Shown: positions 18,219 to 57,608 of the stretch, piece by piece
Numbering within the stretch: the stretch's first letter is position 1
Layout of the letters: the number at the start of each line of letters is the position of its first letter
Source of the DNA: Nitrospirota bacterium
GTDB taxonomy: Bacteria; Nitrospirota; Thermodesulfovibrionia; Thermodesulfovibrionales; UBA6898
Direction of reading: 5' to 3'
Assembly: GCA_016235245.1 (NCBI GenBank)
Contig: JACRLO010000034.1
Coordinates: 1 to 64,000 of the forward strand
DNA: 64,000 nt
Notes under the pieces: model-generated
The model's input: the letters and a program-made list of their open reading frames with translations, nothing else
What the model was told of the DNA's origin: nothing
Databases searched by the model: none
Made by a program: the position numbers and the translations under genes

Positions 18219-18809
18219 ATGAAAAAAGCGATATTTCTGATTTTGATCACGCTCATGTTGTCAGGGCTGTCAGGCTGCGGGTACAACACCATGCAGGCCA
18301 ATGAAGAGGCGGTCAAGGCGGCCTGGGGAGATGTAGAGGCATCATACCAGCGGAGGAACGATCTTATACCGAACCTCGTGGAAGTGGTGAAAGGTTACGC
18401 AAAACATGAGAAGGATACACTTCAGGCAGTAACCGAGGCGCGTGCAAAGGTCGGGACTATTCAGGCATCCAAAGATATTCTCAACGACCCCAAGGCCCTG
18501 TCACAGTTTCAGGCGGCTCAAGGCGCCATGTCCAGTGCACTCTCGCGCTTAATGGTCGTTGTTGAAAAGTATCCGGACCTGAAGGCGAACCAGAACTTCA
18601 TGGATCTTCAGCACCAGTTGGAAGGAACAGAAAACAGGATCAATGTTGCCCGCACCCGTTTCAACAAGTCTGTGGAGACCTTTAATGTCTCGATCAGGAT
18701 ATTCCCCAACAGTCTCACAAACTCCATGCTTCTGCACCTGAAACCGCGGGAGGCCTTCAAGGCCGAGGCAGGGGCTGAAAAGGCGCCAAAAGTGGAGTTT
18801 AGCAAATAG
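18219..18809 (+). CDS. LemA-family lipoprotein
   Basis: 196 residues. Lipoprotein signal ends LSGC with the lipid Cys at residue 20, then the long LemA helices: [36 protein letters not shown] and [24 protein letters not shown] (LemA signature). LemA proteins are inner-membrane or periplasmic helical proteins, typically beside TPM genes as here. CGGAGG precedes the start. TPM genes follow at once, suggesting a LemA-TPM complex. The role is unknown. Confidence 0.93.
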
Positions 18810-18856
18810 CAAGAGAGTACAAAAAAATGATGGCTTTATTCCTTAACACCTCCCGT

Positions 18857-18879
18857 CCTCCCCTTACATTAAGGGGAGG
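18857..18879. repeat. REP-like palindrome
   Basis: CCTCCCCTTA, a CAT loop, then TAAGGGGAGG: a perfect 10-bp stem, followed by GGAGGTGGAG. It lies between lemA and the first TPM gene and inside a frame that would extend that gene upstream. It resembles dispersed palindromic repeats known from other genomes, but only one copy is seen here. Confidence 0.6.
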
Positions 18880-18910
18880 TGGAGGTGGAGTTACCCGCCA
18901 AAGGGCAATA

Positions 18911-19840
18911 ATGTGCACTATCGGCTTTACGCTGATAATGTTAGCGCTTGTCATTATTATAGCTCCATCTGCCCATGCCCTTGAAGTCCCGAAGCTGCTG
19001 GGACGCGTCAATGACTACGCAGGCATGCTCTCCCCTCAGACTAAGAGCACCCTTGAACAGCAGCTTAAGACAGTTGAGCAGTCTGACTCTACTCAGATCG
19101 TTATCGTCACAATCCCTTCTCTGCAGGGAGAGGTGCTGGAACAGTTCAGTATCAAAGTGGCGGAGAAATGGAAGATCGGGCAGAAGGGAAAGGACAATGG
19201 CGTCATCCTCCTTGTATCGAAAAACGACAGGAAGATGCGCATCGAGGTCGGCAGAGGGCTCGAAGAAAAGATAACAGACCTGAGGGCCGGCAGGATCATC
19301 GATGAGGTGATAAAACCTAGGTTCAAGGCAGGCGATTATGACGGGGGCATCACAGAGGGTATCGCCTCGATCATAGCTGCGTCCAGGGGTGAGTTCAGGG
19401 CAGTTCCTCCACCTCAACCTCAGCAGAAACCTCCCGTGCCAGGATCATTTTCAACCATAACTGGTATCCCATGGGGATTTTATGTCCTGGTAATTGTAAT
19501 ATACATCGGCATATTCTTCTTCGGAAAGATATCGGAAATTCTCGGCTCAGGCCTCGGTGCTTTCTTCACACCTCTGGCTGCCGGAATGCTTTCCCTCAAT
19601 CCATTGGCGAATTTGACCAAGCTCCTGTTTGCGATTCTCGGGCTTGGCATAGGTTATGGCCTCTCGGTAATGGGAACTTCAAAACTCAGAATAGCTCAAG
19701 AATACCTGTCCTCTAGATTGATCAGGGAGTCTGGCTCGGGCTCAGGCAGCAGCGGCGACAGCAGTAGCGGCAGCAGCGGAGGTGATTCTGGCGGAGGTGG
19801 CGGAGATTTTGGCGGCGGTGGGGCGTCAGGGAGTTGGTAA
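18911..19840 (+). CDS. TPM-domain membrane protein, first of tandem pair
   Basis: 309 residues. Signal peptide (about 1-23, ending AHA), a TPM domain (about 26-150: VNDYAGMLSPQ, DSTQIVIVTIPSLQGEVLEQF, WKIGQKGKDNGVI, GRGLEEKITDLRAGRIID, GDYDGGI) and two or three membrane helices, then a Ser/Gly-rich tail ending GGGGASGSW. The start at 18911 is chosen because the longer frame to 18827 runs through the REP-like palindrome and adds 28 residues before the signal peptide. It shares long near-identical blocks with the next gene, a tandem duplication. Confidence 0.88.
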   Translation: MCTIGFTLIMLALVIIIAPSAHALEVPKLLGRVNDYAGMLSPQTKSTLEQQLKTVEQSDSTQIVIVTIPSLQGEVLEQFSIKVAEKWKIGQKGKDNGVILLVSKNDRKMRIEVGRGLEEKITDLRAGRIIDEVIKPRFKAGDYDGGITEGIASIIAASRGEFRAVPPPQPQQKPPVPGSFSTITGIPWGFYVLVIVIYIGIFFFGKISEILGSGLGAFFTPLAAGMLSLNPLANLTKLLFAILGLGIGYGLSVMGTSKLRIAQEYLSSRLIRESGSGSGSSGDSSSGSSGGDSGGGGGDFGGGGASGSW

Positions 19841-19851
19841 TGAGGGGAAAA

Positions 19852-20742
19852 ATGAAAATATCTTTAATTGTCACAAGCTTTTTGGCCGCTGCACTTCTGT
19901 GCCTCGGCCCATATGCCCATGCCCTTGAGGTCCCCAAACTGACCGGGTATATAAATGACTATGGCAGTATGATCTCGCCCCAGGCAAAGGCAACACTTGA
20001 ACAGGAACTGCGCGCGTTCGAGCAGTCAGACTCAACCCAGATCGTAATCGTCACCATTCCTTCTCTGCAGGGAGAAGTGCTGGAACAGTTCAGTCTCAAG
20101 ATTGCAGAGGCATGGAAGATCGGCCAGAAGGGAAAGGACAATGGCATCATTTTCCTTGTTTCAAAGGAAGACAGAAAATTACGCATTGAGGTTGGCCGGG
20201 GGCTTGAAGGCAAGCTCACAGACCTTATGGCAGGAAGAATCATAGACCTTGTAGTAAAGCCTCGCTTCAAAAGAGGCGACTTTGACGGCGGCTTTCTTAC
20301 CGGCGTCCATTCCCTGATCGATGCAACAAGGGGCGAGTTCAAGGCAGAACCAGGAGCAACAAAGCGCTCGTCAAAAAAATCAGGGGCTCTTCCTCAACTA
20401 GTCACTTTTATCATCTTCGGGGCTATTGCACTTCTTGTTTTGGGAAATTTTTCCCGCCCTCTTTCAGGAGCAGCAGGCGCAGTCGGACTACCGGCGTTAG
20501 TCGCAATGCTCCTGACGCCAATAGGGCTGATAGCTGCGTTGATTCTCGCGATCATAGGTCTTCTTATAGGACTGATACTGCCCTCCCTTTTTTCTACAGG
20601 GGGCCGTGGTGGTGGGTTTGGCGGCGGATTTTATGGAGGAGGCTTTGGCGGCGGTGGGGGCTTTGGCAGCAGCAGCGGAGGTGATTTTGGTGGTGGTGGC
20701 GGCGGTGACTTTGGCGGCGGCGGGAGTTCGGGAGATTGGTGA
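19852..20742 (+). CDS. TPM-domain membrane protein, second of tandem pair
   Basis: 296 residues: signal peptide (MKISLIVTSFLAAALL...AHA), TPM domain with the same DSTQIVIVTIPSLQGEVLEQF and WKIGQKGKDNG blocks as the preceding gene, two hydrophobic segments near 190-245, and a Gly-rich tail of about 45 residues ending GGGSSGDW. AGGGG lies five bases before the ATG at 19852; frames open to 19834 and 19840 would overlap the previous stop. Duplicate of its neighbour, so probably acts alongside LemA. Confidence 0.88.
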   Translation: MKISLIVTSFLAAALLCLGPYAHALEVPKLTGYINDYGSMISPQAKATLEQELRAFEQSDSTQIVIVTIPSLQGEVLEQFSLKIAEAWKIGQKGKDNGIIFLVSKEDRKLRIEVGRGLEGKLTDLMAGRIIDLVVKPRFKRGDFDGGFLTGVHSLIDATRGEFKAEPGATKRSSKKSGALPQLVTFIIFGAIALLVLGNFSRPLSGAAGAVGLPALVAMLLTPIGLIAALILAIIGLLIGLILPSLFSTGGRGGGFGGGFYGGGFGGGGGFGSSSGGDFGGGGGGDFGGGGSSGDW

Positions 20743-20761
20743 TCTTTACCGGGAGGGTGTG

Positions 20762-21397
20762 ATGAAAATAAAGTCGGAGGCATTTTTTTCAGAGGAAGAG
20801 AAAAAGAAGATCGAGGAGACTGTGCAGAGTGTCGAATGCTGCACCATCGGCGAGGTGGCGGTCATGGTCGTTAACAGCAGCGATGAATACCGCGAGGCAA
20901 CCGTGCTCGGCAGTGTGCTTCTCGGCTCCGGTATCAGCCTGCTTGTATCAGAAGCCTTCCTCCATGCATCGCTCAACTATTTCATCCTCCTCAGTTTTCT
21001 CTTCTTCCCTCTCATCTGGGCGCTGTTGAAGTATCTGCCCGTATTAAAGACATCCTTTGTCGGCAGACTCAGACTGGAGGAGGCCGTACGAGAACGGGCA
21101 TTGAGGGCCTTTTACGAAAAAGGTCTGTACAAAACAAAGGCGAACACAGGCGTACTCTTCTTTATTTCTCTGCTGGAGCACAAAGTATGGGTGCTGGCAG
21201 ATAAAGGTATTTACGAAAAGATCGATCAGCAGACACTTAATACCTATGCGTTGACGGTTTCCCGTGGCATAAAAGAAGGCAGAGCCTGCGATGCTTTGTG
21301 TCAGGCTATCAATGAAGCAGGCAAGATACTCGCTCAGCATTTTCCGCTCACAGCCGGAGATACAAACGAGCTGCCAGATCAAGTTATAACAGAGTAA
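20762..21397 (+). CDS. TPM-family protein (short, signal-less)
   Basis: 211 residues. Starts FFSEEEKKKIEETVQSVECCTIGEVAVMVV, then a hydrophobic pair (about 58-95), a loop with LRLEEAVRERALRAFYEKGLYKTK, NTGVLFFISLLEHKVWVLADKGIYEKI and the C-terminal helix. This is the TPM domain variant in which two membrane helices are inserted into the fold. ATG 20762 follows GGGAGG; the frame open to 20606 is only the out-of-frame Gly tail of the upstream gene. Third TPM gene of the operon. Confidence 0.87.
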   Translation: MKIKSEAFFSEEEKKKIEETVQSVECCTIGEVAVMVVNSSDEYREATVLGSVLLGSGISLLVSEAFLHASLNYFILLSFLFFPLIWALLKYLPVLKTSFVGRLRLEEAVRERALRAFYEKGLYKTKANTGVLFFISLLEHKVWVLADKGIYEKIDQQTLNTYALTVSRGIKEGRACDALCQAINEAGKILAQHFPLTAGDTNELPDQVITE

Positions 21398-43501: not shown

Positions 43502-44165
43502 ACTCATAGCAGCCGTTGATATCCAGAAGTCTTTCAGGACTGAGGCAGGGGAACTGCAGGTGCTGAAAGATATCAACCTTTCGATCAATGAAGGTGAAAT
43601 GGTCAGCATTACCGGAGCGTCGGGAGCAGGTAAAAGCACGCTCATGCATATTCTCGGAGGCCTGGACAGACCGACCGCCGGCAAGATCCTCTTCAGAGGC
43701 ACCGACGTCTTTTCGATGGAAGAGTCGGCCCTCGCTCTGTTCAGAAACAGGAGTATCGGTTTTGTCTTTCAGTTCCACCACCTGCTTCCGGAATTCAATG
43801 CACTTGAAAACACTATGCTGCCGGGCCTGATCGGCAAAAAACCCTATGCAGATGTGCAGAAAAAGGCGCAGGACCTGCTGGGCGATCTCGGCCTGTCCAG
43901 GAGACTGCACCACCGTCCCGGTGAGCTTTCTGGCGGTGAACAGCAGCGTGTTGCTGTGGCACGCGCACTCATGCAGGACTCAGGTCTTGTACTCGCTGAC
44001 GAACCTACCGGCAATCTCGACACCTCAACAGGCGAAAGTCTTTTTGAGCTTTTCCTCGATCTCAACAAAAAAAAGAATATTACTTTTATTATCGTCACTC
44101 ACAATATGAACCTCTCTGATCGCTGCCACAGGATCCTCCGCATGGCAGACGGCATGCTCGTCTGA
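43494..44165 (+). CDS. lolD: Lipoprotein-releasing system ATP-binding protein
   Basis: 223 residues with Walker A GASGAGKST, Q-loop VFQFHHLLPEFNALEN, signature LSGGEQQRVAVARALMQD, Walker B VLADEPTGNLD and switch His in IVTHNMNLS. The PEFNALEN region is a LolD-specific feature. Overlap with lolC supports the complex. The stop is followed by 91 bases before nosL; no clear terminator was found in them. Confidence 0.94.
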   Translation: MSELIAAVDIQKSFRTEAGELQVLKDINLSINEGEMVSITGASGAGKSTLMHILGGLDRPTAGKILFRGTDVFSMEESALALFRNRSIGFVFQFHHLLPEFNALENTMLPGLIGKKPYADVQKKAQDLLGDLGLSRRLHHRPGELSGGEQQRVAVARALMQDSGLVLADEPTGNLDTSTGESLFELFLDLNKKKNITFIIVTHNMNLSDRCHRILRMADGMLV

Positions 44166-44256
44166 ACTGATTGACTCAATTACTCCTTTCTGTTTAACTA
44201 AATATGCAACAATAATTTTTATCAAGGTTCAGGCATAAACATAGCCCGGGAGCAGG

Positions 44257-44733
44257 ATGATGACGAAATTCAGATTACTTATTTTTACACTTATACTCTG
44301 CGGTGCCTTCACCGTTCCGTCCTATGCCGCAGAAGTAAAGGCGGTTACGGTAAAGAAAGACGATAAATGCCCTGTCTGCGGCATGTTTGTCGCAAAGTAC
44401 ACGCACTGGCTCGCAGAGGTCGTCTTTAAAGATGGGACCTATGCGGTATTTGACGGCCCCAAAGACATGTTCAAGTATTATCTGAACCTGCAGAAATATG
44501 CATCCTCAAAGAGATCAGATGACATCACGGGGATCTATGTTACCGAGTATTATTCAACAAAGCTTCAGGATGCCAGAAAACTGTTTTATGTTATCGGCAG
44601 TGACGTGTACGGCCCTATGGGAGATGAGCTGGTTCCTCTTTCTACAGAGGCGGACGCCCGGGAGTTTATGAGAGATCATAAAGGCACCAGAATAGTGAAG
44701 TTTCAGGAAGTAACGATCGAGCTTCTGCACTGA
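44257..44733 (+). CDS. NosL-family copper-binding protein
   Basis: 158 residues with a signal sequence (about 1-24; LCGAFTVPSYAAEV, not a standard lipobox) and the NosL core: KCPVCGMFVAKYTHWLAEV with Cys38, Cys41 and Met43, then AVFDGPKDMFKYYL. NosL binds Cu(I) and serves N2O reductase maturation in denitrifiers, but NosL-like proteins also occur without nosZ, as here. It is followed four bases later by the DUF2318 gene. No nosZ, nosD, nosF or nosY gene is present in this window. Confidence 0.88.
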   Translation: MMTKFRLLIFTLILCGAFTVPSYAAEVKAVTVKKDDKCPVCGMFVAKYTHWLAEVVFKDGTYAVFDGPKDMFKYYLNLQKYASSKRSDDITGIYVTEYYSTKLQDARKLFYVIGSDVYGPMGDELVPLSTEADAREFMRDHKGTRIVKFQEVTIELLH

Positions 44734-44737
44734 TACC

Positions 44738-45178
44738 ATGAGGCCTCATACAATCTTTGCTTTCTTCCTGTTTCTCCTCATGCTGACCGGCTGCGGCAGG
44801 CAACCCGCCCTGTATAAGGATGCCCCGGCAAGAGACGGCAGTATTGTCATACCGCTTAGTGATGTCAGTGATGGAAAGGCGCATTTTTACACGTACCGGA
44901 AGACCGGCAAGCATATAAACTTCTTTGTCAGAGCTGATGGAAAAGGGACTGTTTCTTCATACTATGATGCCTGCTTCACCTGCTACAAGAAGAAAAAAGG
45001 ATACCGTCAGGAGGGCATTGACCTGATCTGCAACGAATGCAGCATGAAGTTCGGACTTGCAGAAGAGAAATGGGATGAAAAAGACGGGTGCAATCCCATC
45101 CACCTCAAGAGCACTATTGTGGCCAACAACCTCGTGATTGATACTGCCGTGATCGAAAAAGGAGCAAAACTGTTCTGA
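44738..45178 (+). CDS. DUF2318-domain lipoprotein (Fe-S/metal-binding-type)
   Basis: 146 residues. Lipobox LTGC with the lipid Cys at residue 19. Cys79, Cys82, Cys98 and Cys101 (YYDACFTC, LICNEC) and the downstream GCNPIH match the DUF2318 pattern, predicted to bind a metal or Fe-S centre. In Campylobacter the p19 iron-uptake operon carries a DUF2318 protein with MacB/FtsX-type ABC genes, a parallel to the transporter encoded here. It ends three bases from the ABC gene on the other strand. Confidence 0.87.
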   Translation: MRPHTIFAFFLFLLMLTGCGRQPALYKDAPARDGSIVIPLSDVSDGKAHFYTYRKTGKHINFFVRADGKGTVSSYYDACFTCYKKKKGYRQEGIDLICNECSMKFGLAEEKWDEKDGCNPIHLKSTIVANNLVIDTAVIEKGAKLF

Positions 45179-45181
45179 TCT

Positions 45182-45856
45182 TCATACCCCGGCAAGGATG
45201 CCGCGGGTCATCCGCAGCTGCCGTGATGCCATGCCTGCAAGCTCCAGATTGTGCGTTATAAAAATAAAGGTCATCATCTTTTCCCTGTTCAGCTTCTTGA
45301 ATAGTTCAACAATATCAGCCTCTGTCTCTTCATCCAGATCGCCTGTGGGTTCATCAGCAAGGATGACGGGAGGATCGTACATCAGTGCCCGGGCAATAGC
45401 AACACGGCGCTGCTGACCTCCTGAGAGCTGTGACGGATAGGCATCTGCCTTCTCCCCAATACCAACAAGATCAAGGTATTCCTCTGCCCTTTTAACCGCA
45501 TGCACATCCTTCCGTTGACTGAAGAGGCCCGGCAGAAGAACATTTTCCGTTGAGGTAAGCATGGGGAGAAGACTGGCGAATTGAAACATGAACCCGATAT
45601 TCATATTTCTGTATGCAGAGAGATCGTCATCATTAAGGCTGCAGATGTCCTTGCCCTCAAAGAGCACCTTTCCTGATGTAGGCTTCATGATACCGCCGAT
45701 TATCGATATAAGCGTAGTCTTTCCTGACCCCGAATGACCGACAATCGACACAAACTCACCCTTCTCAATGTGCAGCGATACCTTGCTGACTGCAGTGATC
45801 TCCTGATTGCCCACCGGATAGATCTTCGTCAGCTCTGAAACTTCAATCTGGGCCAC
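45182..45856 (-). CDS. MacB-type ABC transporter ATP-binding protein
   Basis: 224 residues with Walker A GHSGSGKTT, signature LSGGQQRRVAIARALMYDP, Walker B VILADEPTGDLDEET and switch His in ITHNLELA. It belongs to the LolD/MacB/FtsE class, which pairs with FtsX-fold permeases and moves or extracts rather than imports. The permease gene precedes it by three bases. The DUF2318 gene is convergent. Substrate unknown; neighbours suggest a metal or cofactor function. Confidence 0.92.
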   Translation of the reverse strand: MAQIEVSELTKIYPVGNQEITAVSKVSLHIEKGEFVSIVGHSGSGKTTLISIIGGIMKPTSGKVLFEGKDICSLNDDDLSAYRNMNIGFMFQFASLLPMLTSTENVLLPGLFSQRKDVHAVKRAEEYLDLVGIGEKADAYPSQLSGGQQRRVAIARALMYDPPVILADEPTGDLDEETEADIVELFKKLNREKMMTFIFITHNLELAGMASRQLRMTRGILAGV

Positions 45857-45859
45857 AAG

Positions 45860-47056
45860 CTAATCCTTTTTTATCGCCATGAGAGGTTCCATCTTTTTTA
45901 TCTTCCAGATGGGCGCAAGCGCTCCGGCAATACATATTGAATTTCCGATGAGAAAACCTATACACGCAATAAGTATGCGATTCAGGACCGTAAGATGCAT
46001 CGGAAGGCTCTTCATAATCGAAAAACTCTTTGCAAGAACTATTGAAAGCGTCGTCCCGCCGAAAATACCGATGAGACTGCCGATGCTGCCGACGATAATA
46101 ACCTCGGCAAGAAATACCGTAACGATATGCGACTCCCGTGCGCCAACCGCCCGCATGATCCCCACCTCACGGGCACGCTCATTCGCAATGGCAGAAAATA
46201 TGGCCCAGGTCAGAAATCCCGACAATAAGGCAATAAGTATCATGGTGAAGATGAATATCTGATTAATGTCCCGGAGTGTGGTAATAATGCTCTTGCCGAT
46301 ATCTTTCCGCGCCATAGTGTCAAGCTCCACAAAGGCATCCTCGATCTCACCGGCAACCTTATAGGGATCAAGTCCTTTTCTTACCTTTATGAAAACAATA
46401 GAGACCTGACCCGGCTTCAGATCTGTCTGCCCCTTTACCATGATATCCTCAAGGTTCTCGTCATTGATGAACAGCGCATTGTCAAGACCGGTGCCTGTCT
46501 TGTCAAGGACACCGACCATCTTAAAGATATTACCGAAAAGGACCTTGTCAACATCAACAAGCCCTACTCTGATATTGAACGCAGACTCGTTGCCAACGAG
46601 GGCCTCGCCCTTCTGCAGCTTCCTGTTGAATTTTTCGCTCAGCCAGGGCTTTACAACGAAATCAGTCTCCTGATTAAAGGCAACCACAACGGTTTCAGGC
46701 ACATCGCAGCATTTACCCTGCATGGTAGTAAGATATGTCTGATAGGTCATCTGATCAATGCCTTTTATCGTCTTCAGCTTATCGATCTCGGCCTTGTCCA
46801 TGTAAAAGGACTTTGCCTTGTTCTCAAGCAGCACATCCTCGGCTGCTCCCCGGGAGCCCGCAGGAACGACCAGAATATCAGCGCCAAGCCGCTCCGAAGC
46901 CAGCTTGATGCTCGAAGACACCCTGCTGACAAAAGAAAGGGCGAAGACCAGAGCAGAGACAAGGATTGCAATAGCCGCAATTAGAATTACCGTACGTACC
47001 GGTTTTCTCTTGAGATTGCGCAGGGCAAAAGTAGAAATAGTAAATTCGGTCTGCAT
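45860..47056 (-). CDS. MacB/FtsX-fold ABC permease
   Basis: 398 residues: first membrane helix (about 20-45), a periplasmic domain of about 220 residues and three C-terminal helices. AREVGIMRAVGARESHIVTVFLAEV is the FtsX cytoplasmic signature. It is the partner of the downstream ATPase. The homologous p19 systems have two such permeases; only one is encoded here, implying a homodimer. A strong UUCG hairpin separates it from the cytochrome gene upstream. Confidence 0.92.
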   Translation of the reverse strand: MQTEFTISTFALRNLKRKPVRTVILIAAIAILVSALVFALSFVSRVSSSIKLASERLGADILVVPAGSRGAAEDVLLENKAKSFYMDKAEIDKLKTIKGIDQMTYQTYLTTMQGKCCDVPETVVVAFNQETDFVVKPWLSEKFNRKLQKGEALVGNESAFNIRVGLVDVDKVLFGNIFKMVGVLDKTGTGLDNALFINDENLEDIMVKGQTDLKPGQVSIVFIKVRKGLDPYKVAGEIEDAFVELDTMARKDIGKSIITTLRDINQIFIFTMILIALLSGFLTWAIFSAIANERAREVGIMRAVGARESHIVTVFLAEVIIVGSIGSLIGIFGGTTLSIVLAKSFSIMKSLPMHLTVLNRILIACIGFLIGNSICIAGALAPIWKIKKMEPLMAIKKD

Positions 47057-47085
47057 AAGGTAAGTATTATAGCGGATTTAAAGAT

Positions 47086-47121
47086 ATTCTATCTATGCGG
47101 CCGAAGCCGCATAGATAGAAT
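47086..47121 (-). terminator. UUCG-capped hairpin after the cytochrome gene
   Basis: A perfect 16-bp stem whose minus-strand RNA loop is UUCG closed by C-G, the extra-stable tetraloop. It is 18 bases after the cytochrome stop and before the permease start. The trailing bases (ATCTTTAAATCC) are only weakly T-rich, so it may be a terminator, a partial terminator or a 3' end protecting hairpin. Confidence 0.7.
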
Positions 47122-47139
47122 TAAGAGAGAAGATAGATT

Positions 47140-48273
47140 CTATTTCTTGAAGTTCGCGTCTATACCGCAGAGAACAGCACTCTTGTCGCCAAGGCCCATG
47201 CCCTTATGGCAGGCCTGGCAGGTAGAAGCTGACTTACCAACAATCTTCTTGGCATCTACATCATAGAGCTGGAGAGTACCGTCTGTGATGGTCTTGCCGG
47301 GAAGCGGCTTGCCATCAACATCACAACCCTCTGTGGAGGTCCTGAGCGTAAGGAGTGCATACTTGCCGTCCAGAGTAGGTATTGCATCATGATTCTGCCC
47401 TGCAGTGGACATCTTCTCATCAACCATCTTCAGATTGCTGCCGTCAAGAAGCCAGAACCTGTCAGCTGCTGATTGGAAAATTAACTTGTCATCCTTGCTG
47501 AAATACATTCTGAATGTGATGGTCTTTCCTGGCTCGCCTTTATGGGTTGCCTTTGCAAGAACCTTCCATTCACCCTTTTCCATTGCAGGCAGATCAACAA
47601 GAATGGAATCAACTGCGCCGTTGGCCTTGCCGTCATCACCCTTCATCGTTATGGATATAAGGAACTTCTTCATATCGTTTGAGTTTGTTCCATGGACAAA
47701 GACATAGGAACCTGACTTGTAACCAAGACCGTCAACGAACATTCTCTTCTTGTGCTCCATGGTCTTCTTGTCGAATACATCTACATAGCCTTCATTACCC
47801 ATGAAAATCGGAAGATAGCTGGCCTTTGACTGGCCTGATGCACAATACAGGGGGGGCTTTTCGCCAGGGGATCTCTTGTCAGGATCCATCGCAACATCCT
47901 TGAGAACCTTTCCGGTCTTCAGATCAGTCTTTCCGACGTGCTGCTTCTTGTTGGCATCAAGCACATAAGTCGACCAGAACATGATGTTCGAATCTTCAGA
48001 GTCGATTCTTGCATCGTGGGTCGGGTGTGAGGTCTTGTCACCGATTACAACTCTGTCAAGATTAGCCACCTTGATCGGATCGTCTGCATTGTTCGGGTCG
48101 ATTGTAACATCAGCCTTTGCGAAATGTCCGCCCATGCCTGCTACGTAAACTGTTGCCGAGTATGTCTTCTTCGCTGCTGTCGCAACAGATACCTTGGTAT
48201 CGACTGTCGTAAAGGCAAGATAGCCGCCCACTACCACTGTAAGAACTAAAGCCACAAGCAATACTTTCTTCAT
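47140..48273 (-). CDS. Exported monohaem cytochrome c with predicted beta-propeller-like body
   Basis: 377 residues with an N-terminal signal or anchor (about 4-24). The body has recurring strands (VYVAGMGGHFAKADV, HPTHDARID, NHDAIPTLDGKYALLTL, GTLQLYDVDAKK) suggesting a beta-propeller, and ends with a haem c motif CQACH (Cys352, Cys355, His356) plus a later Cys369. The scattered His-containing turns are typical of metal or haem periphery, which is inference. GGGGAG precedes the ATG. It precedes the ABC permease and shares the locus with NosL and DUF2318. I do not recognise the family. Confidence 0.75.
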   Translation of the reverse strand: MKKVLLVALVLTVVVGGYLAFTTVDTKVSVATAAKKTYSATVYVAGMGGHFAKADVTIDPNNADDPIKVANLDRVVIGDKTSHPTHDARIDSEDSNIMFWSTYVLDANKKQHVGKTDLKTGKVLKDVAMDPDKRSPGEKPPLYCASGQSKASYLPIFMGNEGYVDVFDKKTMEHKKRMFVDGLGYKSGSYVFVHGTNSNDMKKFLISITMKGDDGKANGAVDSILVDLPAMEKGEWKVLAKATHKGEPGKTITFRMYFSKDDKLIFQSAADRFWLLDGSNLKMVDEKMSTAGQNHDAIPTLDGKYALLTLRTSTEGCDVDGKPLPGKTITDGTLQLYDVDAKKIVGKSASTCQACHKGMGLGDKSAVLCGIDANFKK

Positions 48274-48388
48274 AGTTTCTCCCCGTTATATTTGGTTTAT
48301 ACAGCTGTGCAACTCCAGAGAACATACATCATTTGCACCGTTTGTTCATTGCTCGCTTCCGGGATCACCACCTTTCGCCTAAGCATTT

Positions 48389-48433
48389 ATGAGATGTATA
48401 ATAATCTCATGCTGTCTTACCTTAGCATCTCAT
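48389..48433. promoter_or_regulatory. ATCTCAT repeats upstream of the cytochrome gene
   Basis: ATGAGAT (48389-48395) faces ATCTCAT (48404-48410) as an inverted repeat, and a second ATCTCAT lies at 48427-48433, spaced 23 bases. They sit in the 290-base AT-rich gap between the DsrE-like gene and the cytochrome start. A possible operator array; no promoter was found with confidence. Confidence 0.35.
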
Positions 48434-48501
48434 TCATAGAGTTATCAACTTGAATTTCTAACTTTAGAAGACCTATGTCATTGATTTATCATGAAAAACA
48501 A

Positions 48502-48529
48502 ACAATTTCACATGATCATGAAGAATTGT
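48502..48529 (-). terminator. Imperfect palindrome with T-run after the DsrE-like gene
   Basis: ACAATT/AATTGT arms around a self-complementary CATGATCATG core (48511-48520), separated by three unpaired bases on each side. On the minus strand it is followed by TTGTTTTTC, 35 bases past the DsrE-like stop, fitting an AT-rich intrinsic terminator. It could alternatively be an operator. Confidence 0.35.
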
Positions 48530-48563
48530 GAAAAGTAACGGCAGCTTGCTGCCAGGAAAGTCT

Positions 48564-48836
48564 TTAATAGGATATGACAGAATCGAAATGGACAAGCTCG
48601 CGGGCAATGGCATCCGTGTCCATCACTTCAAAAGAATTGTCAGGGCGGTTGGAGACAATGCGCATGCCAAGGTCATTCAACACCTCGAGGGTTGCGGCAA
48701 TACCCTGCTCCTTACAGTCCAGTAAGCAGTCCATCAGATAGACATGGACCTCATCATCTTCGAGCGACAGGCCTATTGCCATACGCAGGGCCTCTGCATG
48801 CCTGTCTCTGACTACCACACCTATTTTTTTTGCCAT
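48564..48836 (-). CDS. DsrE-like small protein
   Basis: 90 residues: KKIGVVVRDRHAEALRMAIGLSLEDDEVHVYLMDCLLDC resembles the first half of DsrE/DsrF-type sulfur-trafficking proteins, with Cys at about 38 and 42. No signal or membrane segment is present. No strong Shine-Dalgarno is seen. The assignment rests on fold-level similarity only. It is solitary, between the cytochrome and the phospholipase-like gene, with opposite downstream context. Confidence 0.6.
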   Translation of the reverse strand: MAKKIGVVVRDRHAEALRMAIGLSLEDDEVHVYLMDCLLDCKEQGIAATLEVLNDLGMRIVSNRPDNSFEVMDTDAIARELVHFDSVISY

Positions 48837-48922
48837 ATTTGAGATATCAGGGAAGTATTTTACGCTGAAGCGGATTCAGCCCATAGAAAGCCGCTGCTAT
48901 AAAAAACCGCTGCCATACCGAT

Positions 48923-49726
48923 CTATTGACGGTAAAATAAACGGCGATTGCCCTTCTCTGCCTGGAACTGAACAAAAGCTTTTGCGAATTTACCATTTCG
49001 CACAGTACCTCCCGGCCTTGTCGAGATCACTTCAGAGCCTTCAAAATTCTGAAGCAGGTCAATCATCTTGTCAAGCGACTCCTGGTGCAACAGTTCGATG
49101 GCATCACGGTCGGGGATAGACGTGACCAGCCTGCGATCAATAAAATCACCAATCTTCTGCTGATTCATAAAGGAAAAGAAGACCATGCCCTTGAAGATTC
49201 TTTTATTGGTCTTAAAAGAAAAGAGAAAGCGCTCAAGCGAGTTTTCAAGGAAGAGATCATTGCGCACTTGTGTTTTTCTGTCGATAAGCATTGCCTGGAA
49301 CCAGTATTTCTTGTCAATAATACTGTCTGCCTTCATCTCAAGGAGCGTATGACCGATATTCTTCTTGTCTGCAGTGTAGGAATTGTGGGCAACCGTATCA
49401 GATGCAAGGTGGCAAAGATAACCGTAGACAAACGCCTTCTGCTGCGATGTCTTAGCCGCCTTGAGAAGATCAAATCCAACTTCCCAGCTGTGAGAGCTCT
49501 TGCCCTCAGGCAGATATTTCTTGCCGATGATGATATCTGCCATGATGTTTCCGTAAAGAAAATCTTTTCGGTATCTCCTCATAAGCTCAAGAACGCCTGC
49601 AGGGATAAGGGCGCTGAGAGAGAAAAGCTCATTCCCGAGATAGATATGCGTCAAAGGCCCCCAGGCATAGCTGAGGCTCGGAACAAGAAGAAAGGATATA
49701 ATCCAGAAAAGCTTGGATATTTTCAT
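48923..49726 (-). CDS. Zinc-dependent phospholipase C-like protein
   Basis: 267 residues, beginning with a signal peptide (KLFWIISFLLVPSLSYA) and then AWGPLTHIYLGNELF, the Trp and His of the family's N-terminal metal site, followed by the helical GYLCHLASDTVAHN with more metal-binding His and Asp. Proteins of this family are related to bacterial zinc-dependent phospholipase C and eukaryotic GPI-PLC-type enzymes; its substrate is not known. The ATG overlaps the pepA stop in ATGA, so it is translated after PepA. The frame extension to 49813 overlaps pepA and is discarded. Confidence 0.82.
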   Translation of the reverse strand: MKISKLFWIISFLLVPSLSYAWGPLTHIYLGNELFSLSALIPAGVLELMRRYRKDFLYGNIMADIIIGKKYLPEGKSSHSWEVGFDLLKAAKTSQQKAFVYGYLCHLASDTVAHNSYTADKKNIGHTLLEMKADSIIDKKYWFQAMLIDRKTQVRNDLFLENSLERFLFSFKTNKRIFKGMVFFSFMNQQKIGDFIDRRLVTSIPDRDAIELLHQESLDKMIDLLQNFEGSEVISTRPGGTVRNGKFAKAFVQFQAEKGNRRLFYRQ

Positions 49727-55276: not shown

Positions 55277-55852
55277 ATGGTTGCAATCGCTGGATTGGTA
55301 TTAATGCTGTTTCTGGTCATTGCCGTATTGGTCGTCGTAGCGGTGGTTGTCATCTACAACAGGCTTGTCCGTCTCAGGACTACGGTTAAGTCGTCCTGGT
55401 CCGACATTGATGTAAACCTCAAGAAGCGCTATGATCTTGTGCCGAACCTCGTTGAGACCGTGAAGGGTTACGCCGGTCATGAAAAATCAGTTTTTGAGAA
55501 TGTGGCTCTGGCCCGTTCAGCAGCGATGAAGGCATCTTCGACTGCTGACAAGGCGAAATCGGAAAATATGTTCACCGAGACCCTGAAGAGCCTCTTTGCC
55601 GTTGCTGAGGCCTATCCTCAGCTCAGAGCAAATGAAAATTTCATGCAGCTTCAGCAGCAACTGAAAGAGCTTGAGGACAATATCGAATCTGCCCGCCGCT
55701 ATTATAATGCAGTGGTCCGTGACTATAACATCATGACTGAAACCTTTCCTTCAAACGTCATTGCCGGCCAGTTCAGGTTCGAAAAGTCAGAGTTTTTCGA
55801 ACTTGAGGAAGCAGGGGTAGAGAGAAAACCGACAAAAGTAAGTTTTTCCTGA
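55277..55852 (+). CDS. LemA family protein
   Basis: 191 residues. One N-terminal membrane helix (about 3-30, without lipobox), then the LemA helices: [66 protein letters not shown]. It is a second LemA in the window, unlike the lipoprotein one at 18.2 kb. DUF2207 protein follows within eight bases, an association common in bacteria. The role is unknown, likely envelope-related. Confidence 0.94.
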
Positions 55853-55859
55853 GGCATTC

Positions 55860-57608
55860 TTGAAGAGGCCGGCTGGGTATACCCTATTTTCACTCTGCCT
55901 TTTCCTCTGCCTGAACCTCTTCATGCCTGAGGCTTCCTTTGCGCAGGACTTCACGATCAATGATTTCAATGTCTTTATCGCCATAAATCAGGACTCGTCT
56001 TTTACCGTCAAAGAGACTCTAACCGTAGAGTTCCATCGGCAGAGACACGGCATATATCGCGACCTCCCCTATCGCTACACCGACAGCACCGGCGCGACAT
56101 TAATGACACCGACCGATATCCTTTCGGTCACTGACGGCAATGGAGCACCCATATCATACCGCATAATCAGACAGGGGAATATCCTGAGAGTGCGGATCGG
56201 TGATGCAAAAACATATGTATCCGGCATACAGAAATACGAGATTTTCTACAGAGTCGAAAACGCCATTCTCTTCTTTGACGATCATGACGAACTCTACTGG
56301 AACGTCACCGGAAACGAATGGAACGCAGCCATCATAAAGGCCCGATGCACGGTGTCCCTGGCCGGGGCCAGGACAAAGGAATACTGGGCCTCCTGCTACA
56401 CGGGCAGGCAGGGTTCCCGCGAATCTGCATGCAGGAATATCCCCGGCGATAACGTTATCGAATTCGTCGCGCAGAGACCACTCCAGACAGGAGAAGGACT
56501 CACCGCTGCATACGGATGGGACAAGGGCATTGTTTCCCCGCCCACTTCTTTTAAGAAAATCCTCTGGGTCTTCAATCTGGTACAGAACTGGGTATTCATT
56601 CTGCCCGTGTTATCCTTCCTGTTCATGCTTTTTCTCTGGATAGAGACAGGCAGAGATCCCCGCGTAAGGGAAGCAATTATGGTCATGTATAGCCCGCCTG
56701 AACATTCCGGGGCTCCGCTCACACCTGCTGAAGTCGGCGCCATGGTCGATGAAAAGCTCGATCCGCGCGATATCACCGCAAGCATTGTCGGACTTGCCGT
56801 AAAGGGGTACATCACGATCGAGGAGACAAAAGATGACGGTCTCATCTTTGACCGAACTGACTATTACCTGAAGAAGATGAAGGATGCAGACGGATCTCTC
56901 AGCAGTTTTGAGCAGCAGTTAATGCTCGATGTCTTTGGATCAATGCCGGGCAGGATGATCTCGGAACTCAAGAACAGCTTCTACCAGAATATCCCTGCAC
57001 TGAAAAAAATACTCTATAATGAACTCCTCAGAAAGAAATACTTCCTCACCAACCCCGAGAGTGTCAGGATCACGTACAGCGTCATCGCTGCAGCCCTTGG
57101 ATTCGGAACGTTTTTTGCACTTCAGACACTGCTGGGCGATACCATTGGAGAGGTCCGGGCTGTATCTGCAGGAGTCCTGACAGGACTGTCAGTGCTTGGC
57201 TTCGCCAAATTCATGCCTGCAAAAACCCGGGAAGGATCTGCGGTATACATGCAGATCCTGGGATTTCAGGAGTTCATGAACAGGGCGGAAAAAGATCAGC
57301 TCGAAAGGATGAAGGACCAGAACCTCTTTTCGAAGTTCTTCCCCTATGCCCTTGCCCTTGAAGTGTCGGACAACTGGGCAAAGGCGTTTGAGGGCATGTA
57401 CCAGGAGCCGCCGGACTGGTATGTCTCGCCCGGCGGGGTCAGGACCTTTAGCCCCACAGGGTTTACTCATTCATTCCGTTCGGCCATGTCAGACATGTCA
57501 TCAGCTATCTACTCCGCACCACGGGGAAGCGGGGCAGGAGGCAGCGGCAGCTTTGGCAGCGGTTCTTCAGGAGGCGGGTTCGGAGGAGGAGGAGGAGGCA
57601 GCTGGTGA
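55860..57608 (+). CDS. DUF2207 membrane protein with Gly-rich tail
   Basis: 582 residues. Signal peptide (about 1-28), DUF2207 extracytoplasmic domain (about 30-215: [36 protein letters not shown]), a hydrophobic helix near 240, a cytoplasmic winged-helix-like part with [40 protein letters not shown], two more helices near 400-440, then a Ser/Gly tail ending [11 protein letters not shown] start preceded by GAGG five bases away. It forms an operon with LemA. Function unknown. Confidence 0.9.

Follow-up and report, generated by a model that had tools for sequence, protein, structure and literature searches.

A candidate copper and haem c propeller oxidoreductase encoded with copper chaperones and a Cys-Cys transporter in Nitrospirota

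Introduction

Why should an exported cytochrome that belongs to no recognised family be encoded next to a copper chaperone and an ATP-binding cassette (ABC) transporter? The question is raised by positions 44,257 to 48,273 of a 64,000-nucleotide stretch of DNA from a Nitrospirota bacterium (contig JACRLO010000034.1 of assembly GCA_016235245.1, positions 1 to 64,000), which we call the window. An original prediction, made from this DNA alone, had pointed to five genes there and proposed a system that loads or scavenges Cu, Fe or haem for the cytochrome. Having examined the locus and its relatives, we think it likely that it makes and matures a periplasmic propeller oxidoreductase carrying copper and haem c, similar to thiocyanate dehydrogenase (TcDH) and N2O reductase (NosZ), and loaded by the chaperones NosL or PCuAC. 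The "Cu, Fe or haem" of the prediction thereby narrows to copper, because the metallochaperones that recur as neighbours are all copper chaperones and because the propeller resembles copper propellers; the iron and haem options were not supported.

The five genes were all present as predicted, with domains assigned by Pfam. Together with one upstream neighbour, they are:

44257..44733, plus strand: exported NosL-type Cu(I) chaperone (PF05573, E 3e-33), with CxxCGM (C38, C41, M43) and an invariant M121
44738..45178, plus strand: DUF2318/FtrD-like Cys-rich lipoprotein (PF10080, E 1e-22), with lipobox LTGC
45182..45856, minus strand: LolD/MacB-type ABC ATPase (ABC_tran, E 3e-35)
45860..47056, minus strand: MacB/FtsX permease of a Cys-Cys subfamily (FtsX 2e-18, MacB_PCD 6e-9)
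47140..48273, minus strand: exported propeller cytochrome of 377 residues, with exactly one CxxCH, an N-terminal anchor or signal, and a fold predicted by AlphaFold2
48564..48836, minus strand: 90-residue protein, DsrE-like by eye, upstream of the cytochrome; its membership of the locus is uncertain

Results

Copper chaperones recur beside the cytochrome

To see which of these neighbours travel together, related loci were drawn from 84,980 genomes, yielding 75 loci (31 from Nitrospirota and 44 from other groups). The widely conserved unit is the cytochrome-permease pair, usually with the ATPase: 67 of the 75 loci have a permease of this family no more than 400 nt from the cytochrome (26/31 in Nitrospirota, 41/44 elsewhere), the five Nitrospirota exceptions including a solo second paralogue and the other three being on short contigs. 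In Nitrospirota the ATPase gene comes after that of the permease and is co-directional with it; in Desulfobacterota-type loci it is found immediately upstream, on the other strand. Outside Nitrospirota, in Desulfobulbaceae and related groups, NosL is found within 6 kb of the cytochrome in 35 of the 44 loci. The block around it also encodes a thioredoxin of the TlpA type, another permease with its ATPase, one small conserved protein and one membrane protein, and several of these Desulfobacterota-type loci are bordered by a two-component system.

Within Nitrospirota, where 58 of 395 genomes carry the cytochrome, chaperone distances were counted in 49 cytochrome-bearing genomes. Of these, 15 have NosL no farther than 8 kb from the cytochrome and 17 have PCuAC within 2.2 kb, nearly always at 170-430 bp; both are near in two genomes, so that one or the other is near in 30/49. 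PCuAC is present anywhere in only 22 of the 49 genomes and is cytochrome-adjacent in 17 of those 22 (binomial P ~4e-33, assuming random placement and ignoring shared ancestry). The NosLs are uniform in their metal-binding motif, with CxxCxM, the motif of clade II NosL (PMC6530538), in all 43 aligned sequences. NosL is dedicated to supplying CuZ, itself a copper site within a propeller (PMC6530538).

Could the neighbours nonetheless have met by accident, NosL and DUF2318 belonging to the lolCD genes upstream and the cytochrome-ABC set being separate? In the window, nosL starts 91 bp past lolD on the same strand. The minus-strand genes, transcribed in the order cytochrome, permease, ATPase, converge on NosL and DUF2318, and this predicted tail-to-tail layout, which we confirmed, occurs only in the genus and those closest to it (L034, L035, L036, L038, L070). 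However, NosL also accompanies the cytochrome in Desulfobacterota-type loci under a different gene order, and the window NosL scores 108-137 bits against the Desulfobacterota-type NosLs as opposed to 26 bits against the double-NosL of its own genome. Had homologues of the cytochrome and ABC genes usually been far from NosL, the prediction would have put the clustering down to chance; since a copper chaperone, NosL or PCuAC, recurs beside the cytochrome across phyla, the clustering of chaperone and cytochrome/ABC pair is not chance. The accidental reading is thus largely refuted by the recurrence of NosL, and we regard it as very improbable. The double-NosL itself is a tandem protein unlinked to the cytochrome (L110 9654-10538, genome contig C10).

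DUF2318 and the parallel with iron uptake

Of the predicted five-gene association, the cytochrome-permease pair and a NosL or PCuAC neighbour are recurrent, but DUF2318 is a sporadic accessory partner: only 9 of the 31 Nitrospirota loci, and 0 of the other 44, have it within 6 kb of the cytochrome. This matters for the idea, raised by the predicted parallel with Campylobacter p19 loci, that the locus performs iron or haem uptake of the FetMP/p19 type to feed the cytochrome. The fetMP-fetABCDEF cluster also has DUF2318, an FtsX permease and an ATPase (PMC10783030), and an Escherichia coli plasmid cluster of the FetMP type was recovered with the window DUF2318. Yet neither P19 (PF10634) nor FTR1 (PF03239) was matched anywhere in the genome, with both search controls positive, which extends to the whole genome what had been noted for the locus. 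Moreover, the locus has only one permease, the Fet permeases lack the Cys-Cys pair and match the window permease over 101-191 residues only (E 1e-7 to 1e-6), and most relatives of the locus have no DUF2318. The parallel therefore fails, and iron or haem uptake is the least probable of the readings considered here.

A predicted six-bladed propeller with a ring of invariant residues

The description of the cytochrome as an exported, monohaem and unrecognised protein with a propeller-like body was borne out. It falls into no Pfam or NCBIfam family, its relatives matching only generic WD40/THOC3 propeller models; a phmmer search of the PDB with the single sequence gave one chance match only, a plasmid search with it gave none, and we found no description of the family in the open-licence literature. 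AlphaFold2 models the window protein as a six-bladed propeller of 24 strands (6 x 4; pLDDT 89.8) and a Desulfobulbaceae homologue likewise (pLDDT 85.5), with 23 strands listed and one broken.

Near the start of all six innermost strands stand H86, C144, H194, R255, H295 and C369, each invariant in the 65 cytochrome sequences scored. Three more His are conserved, H50 and H112 without exception and H83 almost so; judged by strand order in the models, they should lie on the same face as the ring. His and Cys are over-represented among the invariant positions even with CxxCH left out (hypergeometric P 1.6e-5). The haem c motif, C352-C355-H356, is in the loop leading into the last inner strand.

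These same residues could be read more modestly, the propeller being only a scaffold for one haem c in an electron carrier, with its His and Cys used for haem ligation and disulfides and its neighbours for cytochrome maturation or for metal and thiol homeostasis of the envelope. The single CxxCH fits such a role, C144 and C369 could pair, and the best profile match of the family is the beta subunit of hydrazine synthase (E 3e-5), a helper propeller. On the other side, six invariant or near-invariant His besides CxxCH exceed what axial ligation needs, and a mere carrier leaves unexplained the recurrent NosL and PCuAC and the SCO1-like gene that, with PCuAC, lies near a divergent cytochrome (L143). 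We consider a pure carrier unlikely.

Several variants of the cytochrome were also seen. Two have two CxxCH motifs: that of L143 (5491-6714), just mentioned, and one near two FtsX permeases and an ATPase (L145 4717-5916). In a third (L146 5039-7165, genome G245), a cytochrome-like propeller is fused to an N-terminal domain that is caspase-like by eye; H86, C144 and C369 are among the ring residues lost or shifted, and CxxCH is retained.

Relation to thiocyanate dehydrogenase and N2O reductase

Both TcDH and NosZ recur within the top 50 structural matches of the two models (VIA Z 19.5-21.7, 272-289 residues aligned), and their aligned lengths rank among the longest in the comparison; Foldseek alone listed generic WD40/YncE propellers. 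With no structural input, a profile of divergent members (A3) found TcDH among PDB sequences at E 0.003-0.02, placing H295 on TcDH His482 and F254-R255 on Phe436-His437. H295 is the sole cytochrome residue profile-matched to a known ligand position: His482, a copper ligand of TcDH, is the residue mutated in PDB entry 6sji. If this alignment is extended without gaps along the sequence, CxxCH would fall at about the GHHD copper-ligand motif of TcDH. An hhalign comparison of the cytochromes with Nitrospirota TcDH alignments gave 93% probability (P 3e-7) over the C-terminal half. A similar comparison of the A1 alignment with NosZ was discarded as it aligned about one blade at 47% probability, H295 falling on the conserved His of NPHG.

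The Nitrospirota TcDH homologues had been found with a TcDH fragment (L162-L167, in G063, G213, G263, G170, G186 and G220), to which five are 58-73% identical and that of G220 40%. Three of their loci (L163, L164 and L166) have a TcDH-permease-ATPase cluster accompanied by a further permease-ATPase set.

As for NosZ, the statement that nosZ, nosD, nosF and nosY are missing stands for nosZ in the genome as a whole, in which nothing matched nos_propeller, a model that finds NosZ over its cut-off in 30 of the 395 Nitrospirota genomes; for NosD, NosF and NosY it stands beside the locus, the only place where these were looked for. NosZ occurs at high score in only 2 of the 58 cytochrome-bearing Nitrospirota genomes, from which it follows that NosL is not serving NosZ here. 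Weak nos_propeller matches in other genomes, initially taken for TcDH, proved to be NosZ-like proteins of a divergent kind that end in a CuA-type tail. Divergent NosZ-like proteins of five loci (L132-L136, in G021, G030, G002, G049 and G012) are 26-29% identical to Nitrospirota NosZ and have a CuA-like C-terminal motif.

A Cys-Cys permease subfamily shared with TcDH operons

The window permease carries adjacent cysteines, C116-C117, in its periplasmic core, and C375 in its C-terminal FtsX domain. The former pair is conserved in 98% of the family, its single exception being a broken reading frame, and the latter in 100%. The first permease of Nitrospirota TcDH operons is 32% identical to it over 417 columns (E 3e-53) and has Cys-Cys in three of three cases, and the permease that accompanies a divergent cytochrome branch resembles the TcDH permease even more (40%). 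By sequence comparison, the pair was not found in LolC, the E. coli Fet permeases or the second permeases. In a tree, the cytochrome permeases form one clade (99/99) and join the TcDH and divergent-branch permeases at 89/81, a node that is not starred. When plasmids were searched with the window permease, a permease of Methylocella tundrae encoded immediately after a TcDH homologue was independently recovered; this permease lacks Cys-Cys. As published, the Thioalkalivibrio TcDH operon includes two permease and two ATPase genes together with a sigma54 two-component system (PMC5328954).

What the transporter moves could be read in a second way, as a variant of our favoured reading: it would export a thiol or reductant that keeps the Cu(I), Cys and haem sites reduced, forming a thiol or sulfide relay, and would move no metal. 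Relaying reducing power is a function proposed for the Fet ABC genes (PMC10783030), the Desulfobacterota-type clusters include the TlpA-like thioredoxin, and Cys-Cys permeases also adjoin DUF4418, in Treponema near cysteine and methionine genes. A relay alone does not account for NosL and PCuAC, but it is compatible with the copper reading and only gives the transporter another job; we see it as possible, if somewhat doubtful. The DUF4418-adjacent Cys-Cys MacB/FtsX permeases come from fermentative anaerobes (L168 7001-8203, L169 5956-7167, L170 5857-7077), and a DUF4418-like gene also follows the ATPase of the cytochrome cluster in L147.

Host context and other features of the window

Among cytochrome-bearing Nitrospirota genomes, 52/58 have dsrA, as against 177/395 overall (Fisher P 2e-14, uncorrected for ancestry), and in one archaeal locus dsrAB-like genes lie, by eye, a few kb off. 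The main text of a 2026 study of sulfur-disproportionation genes mentions no NosL, FtsX, copper, propellers or cytochromes, and we therefore claim no role in disproportionation.

Around the locus itself, the 90-residue protein matches no Pfam or NCBIfam family, and in many Nitrospirota loci (L034, L036, L038, L043, L046, L070 and others) a homologue precedes the cytochrome gene in the same orientation. Rfam had no match in 44000-49000, and promoter and terminator scans of the locus gave results near chance. Farther away, the window has two LemA-like genes (at 18219-21397 and 55277-57608), each followed by Gly-rich-tailed membrane proteins, of which that at 18219-21397 is TPM-domain-like by eye.

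Discussion

Several lines of evidence lead us to favour a copper enzyme. The cytochrome is linked to NosL or PCuAC, chaperones of different families that replace each other; NosL serves CuZ, which likewise sits in a propeller; invariant residues begin all six inner strands; profile matches point to a remote homology with TcDH, and structural matches to TcDH and NosZ; the permease and permease 1 of TcDH operons fall into one Cys-Cys subfamily; and dsrA is enriched in the genomes concerned. In the mechanism that we envisage, H86, C144, H194, R255, H295 and C369, with the nearby H50, H83 and H112, would form a central copper site, to which NosL, or PCuAC in relatives, would hand Cu(I). The ATP-driven transporter could move copper or supply a thiol or sulfide needed for the transfer, DUF2318 could be an optional redox or metal helper, and the haem c at CxxCH would pass electrons to or from a periplasmic carrier. 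The natural substrate is probably a small sulfur or nitrogen compound. Here we infer not only the substrate, but also copper binding, the number of coppers, the order of transfer and the direction of electron flow. A more specific picture, which we offer only tentatively, has haem c and a copper centre at the mouth of the one central channel of a compact six-bladed propeller, the electron-transfer haem being built into the active-site face, and the enzyme catalysing an unrecognised sulfur or small-nitrogen step in dsr-bearing anaerobes.

A number of observations weigh against this interpretation. Six-bladed propellers of unrelated proteins head the structural ranking (Z up to 25.5); the hhalign match to TcDH is confined to roughly the C-terminal half; and alignments of propeller repeats come easily, as the hydrazine synthase match illustrates. 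The models have six blades and not seven as in TcDH and NosZ, and the ring includes Arg and Cys in place of the seven His of CuZ. Neither NosL nor PCuAC is near the cytochrome in 19 of the 49 genomes, partly owing to short contigs, and the solo paralogue (L109 9308-10438, in the genome of the window contig C8 25807-26937) is without permease, NosL and PCuAC. No propeller is encoded near the DUF4418-adjacent Cys-Cys permeases of Fusobacterium, Treponema and Acetoanaerobium, which means that this type of transporter is not confined to copper propellers; the dsrA association is in part shared ancestry. The solo paralogue is 70% identical to the window cytochrome and lies beside alanine dehydrogenase and an ATP synthase operon.

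Known copper-propeller enzymes are few, namely N2O reductase and thiocyanate dehydrogenase. If our reading is true, the cytochromes would add a third branch to these enzymes, one that carries haem and occurs in sulfate-reducing and sulfur-cycling Nitrospirota, Desulfobacterota-type bacteria and archaea, and would point to some step that depends on copper in lineages whose copper enzymes have been little studied. NosL and Cys-Cys MacB-type transporters could then be a general loading kit for the metal sites of propellers, whose assembly would become testable with so small a client protein.

Comparison with known systems

With the FetMP-FetABCDEF (p19) systems of Campylobacter and E. coli, the window locus has in common DUF2318, an FtsX-type permease and a LolD-like ATPase, as well as a thioredoxin in its relatives; it differs in lacking FTR1 and P19, in having one permease, in Cys-Cys and in its copper rather than iron chaperones. 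The MacB_PCD and FtsX fold and the LolD-like ATPase are those of MacAB/LolCDE-type transporters, whereas the cluster has no MacA/TolC-type adaptor, bears Cys-Cys in the permease core and groups with the permeases of TcDH operons.

What the locus would share with the NosZ system is a propeller of the copper-enzyme kind, a CxxCxM NosL and an ABC transporter for maturation; some NosZ proteins bear a haem c domain. Unlike NosZ, the cytochrome has neither a CuA cupredoxin domain nor the seven-His CuZ set, and its ABC transporter is of a different type from that of the Nos maturation system, with no NosD, NosF or NosY beside the locus. TcDH (Thioalkalivibrio paradoxus 5F75) is likewise a periplasmic propeller with ligand-type residues on its inner strands, and its operon resembles our locus in having a Cys-Cys permease and ATPase after the propeller gene, copper genes near and, in some loci, a sigma54 two-component system. 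However, TcDH has seven blades, about 500 residues and no haem c, a separate cytochrome c552 being thought to be used, in contrast to the six predicted blades, 377 residues and built-in CxxCH of the cytochrome, which has NosL or PCuAC in place of CopCD and a structure-based identity to TcDH of only ~15%. Given its six predicted blades, different putative ligand set and built-in haem c, we rate the family as one of the copper-propeller kind that stands outside TcDH and NosZ proper.

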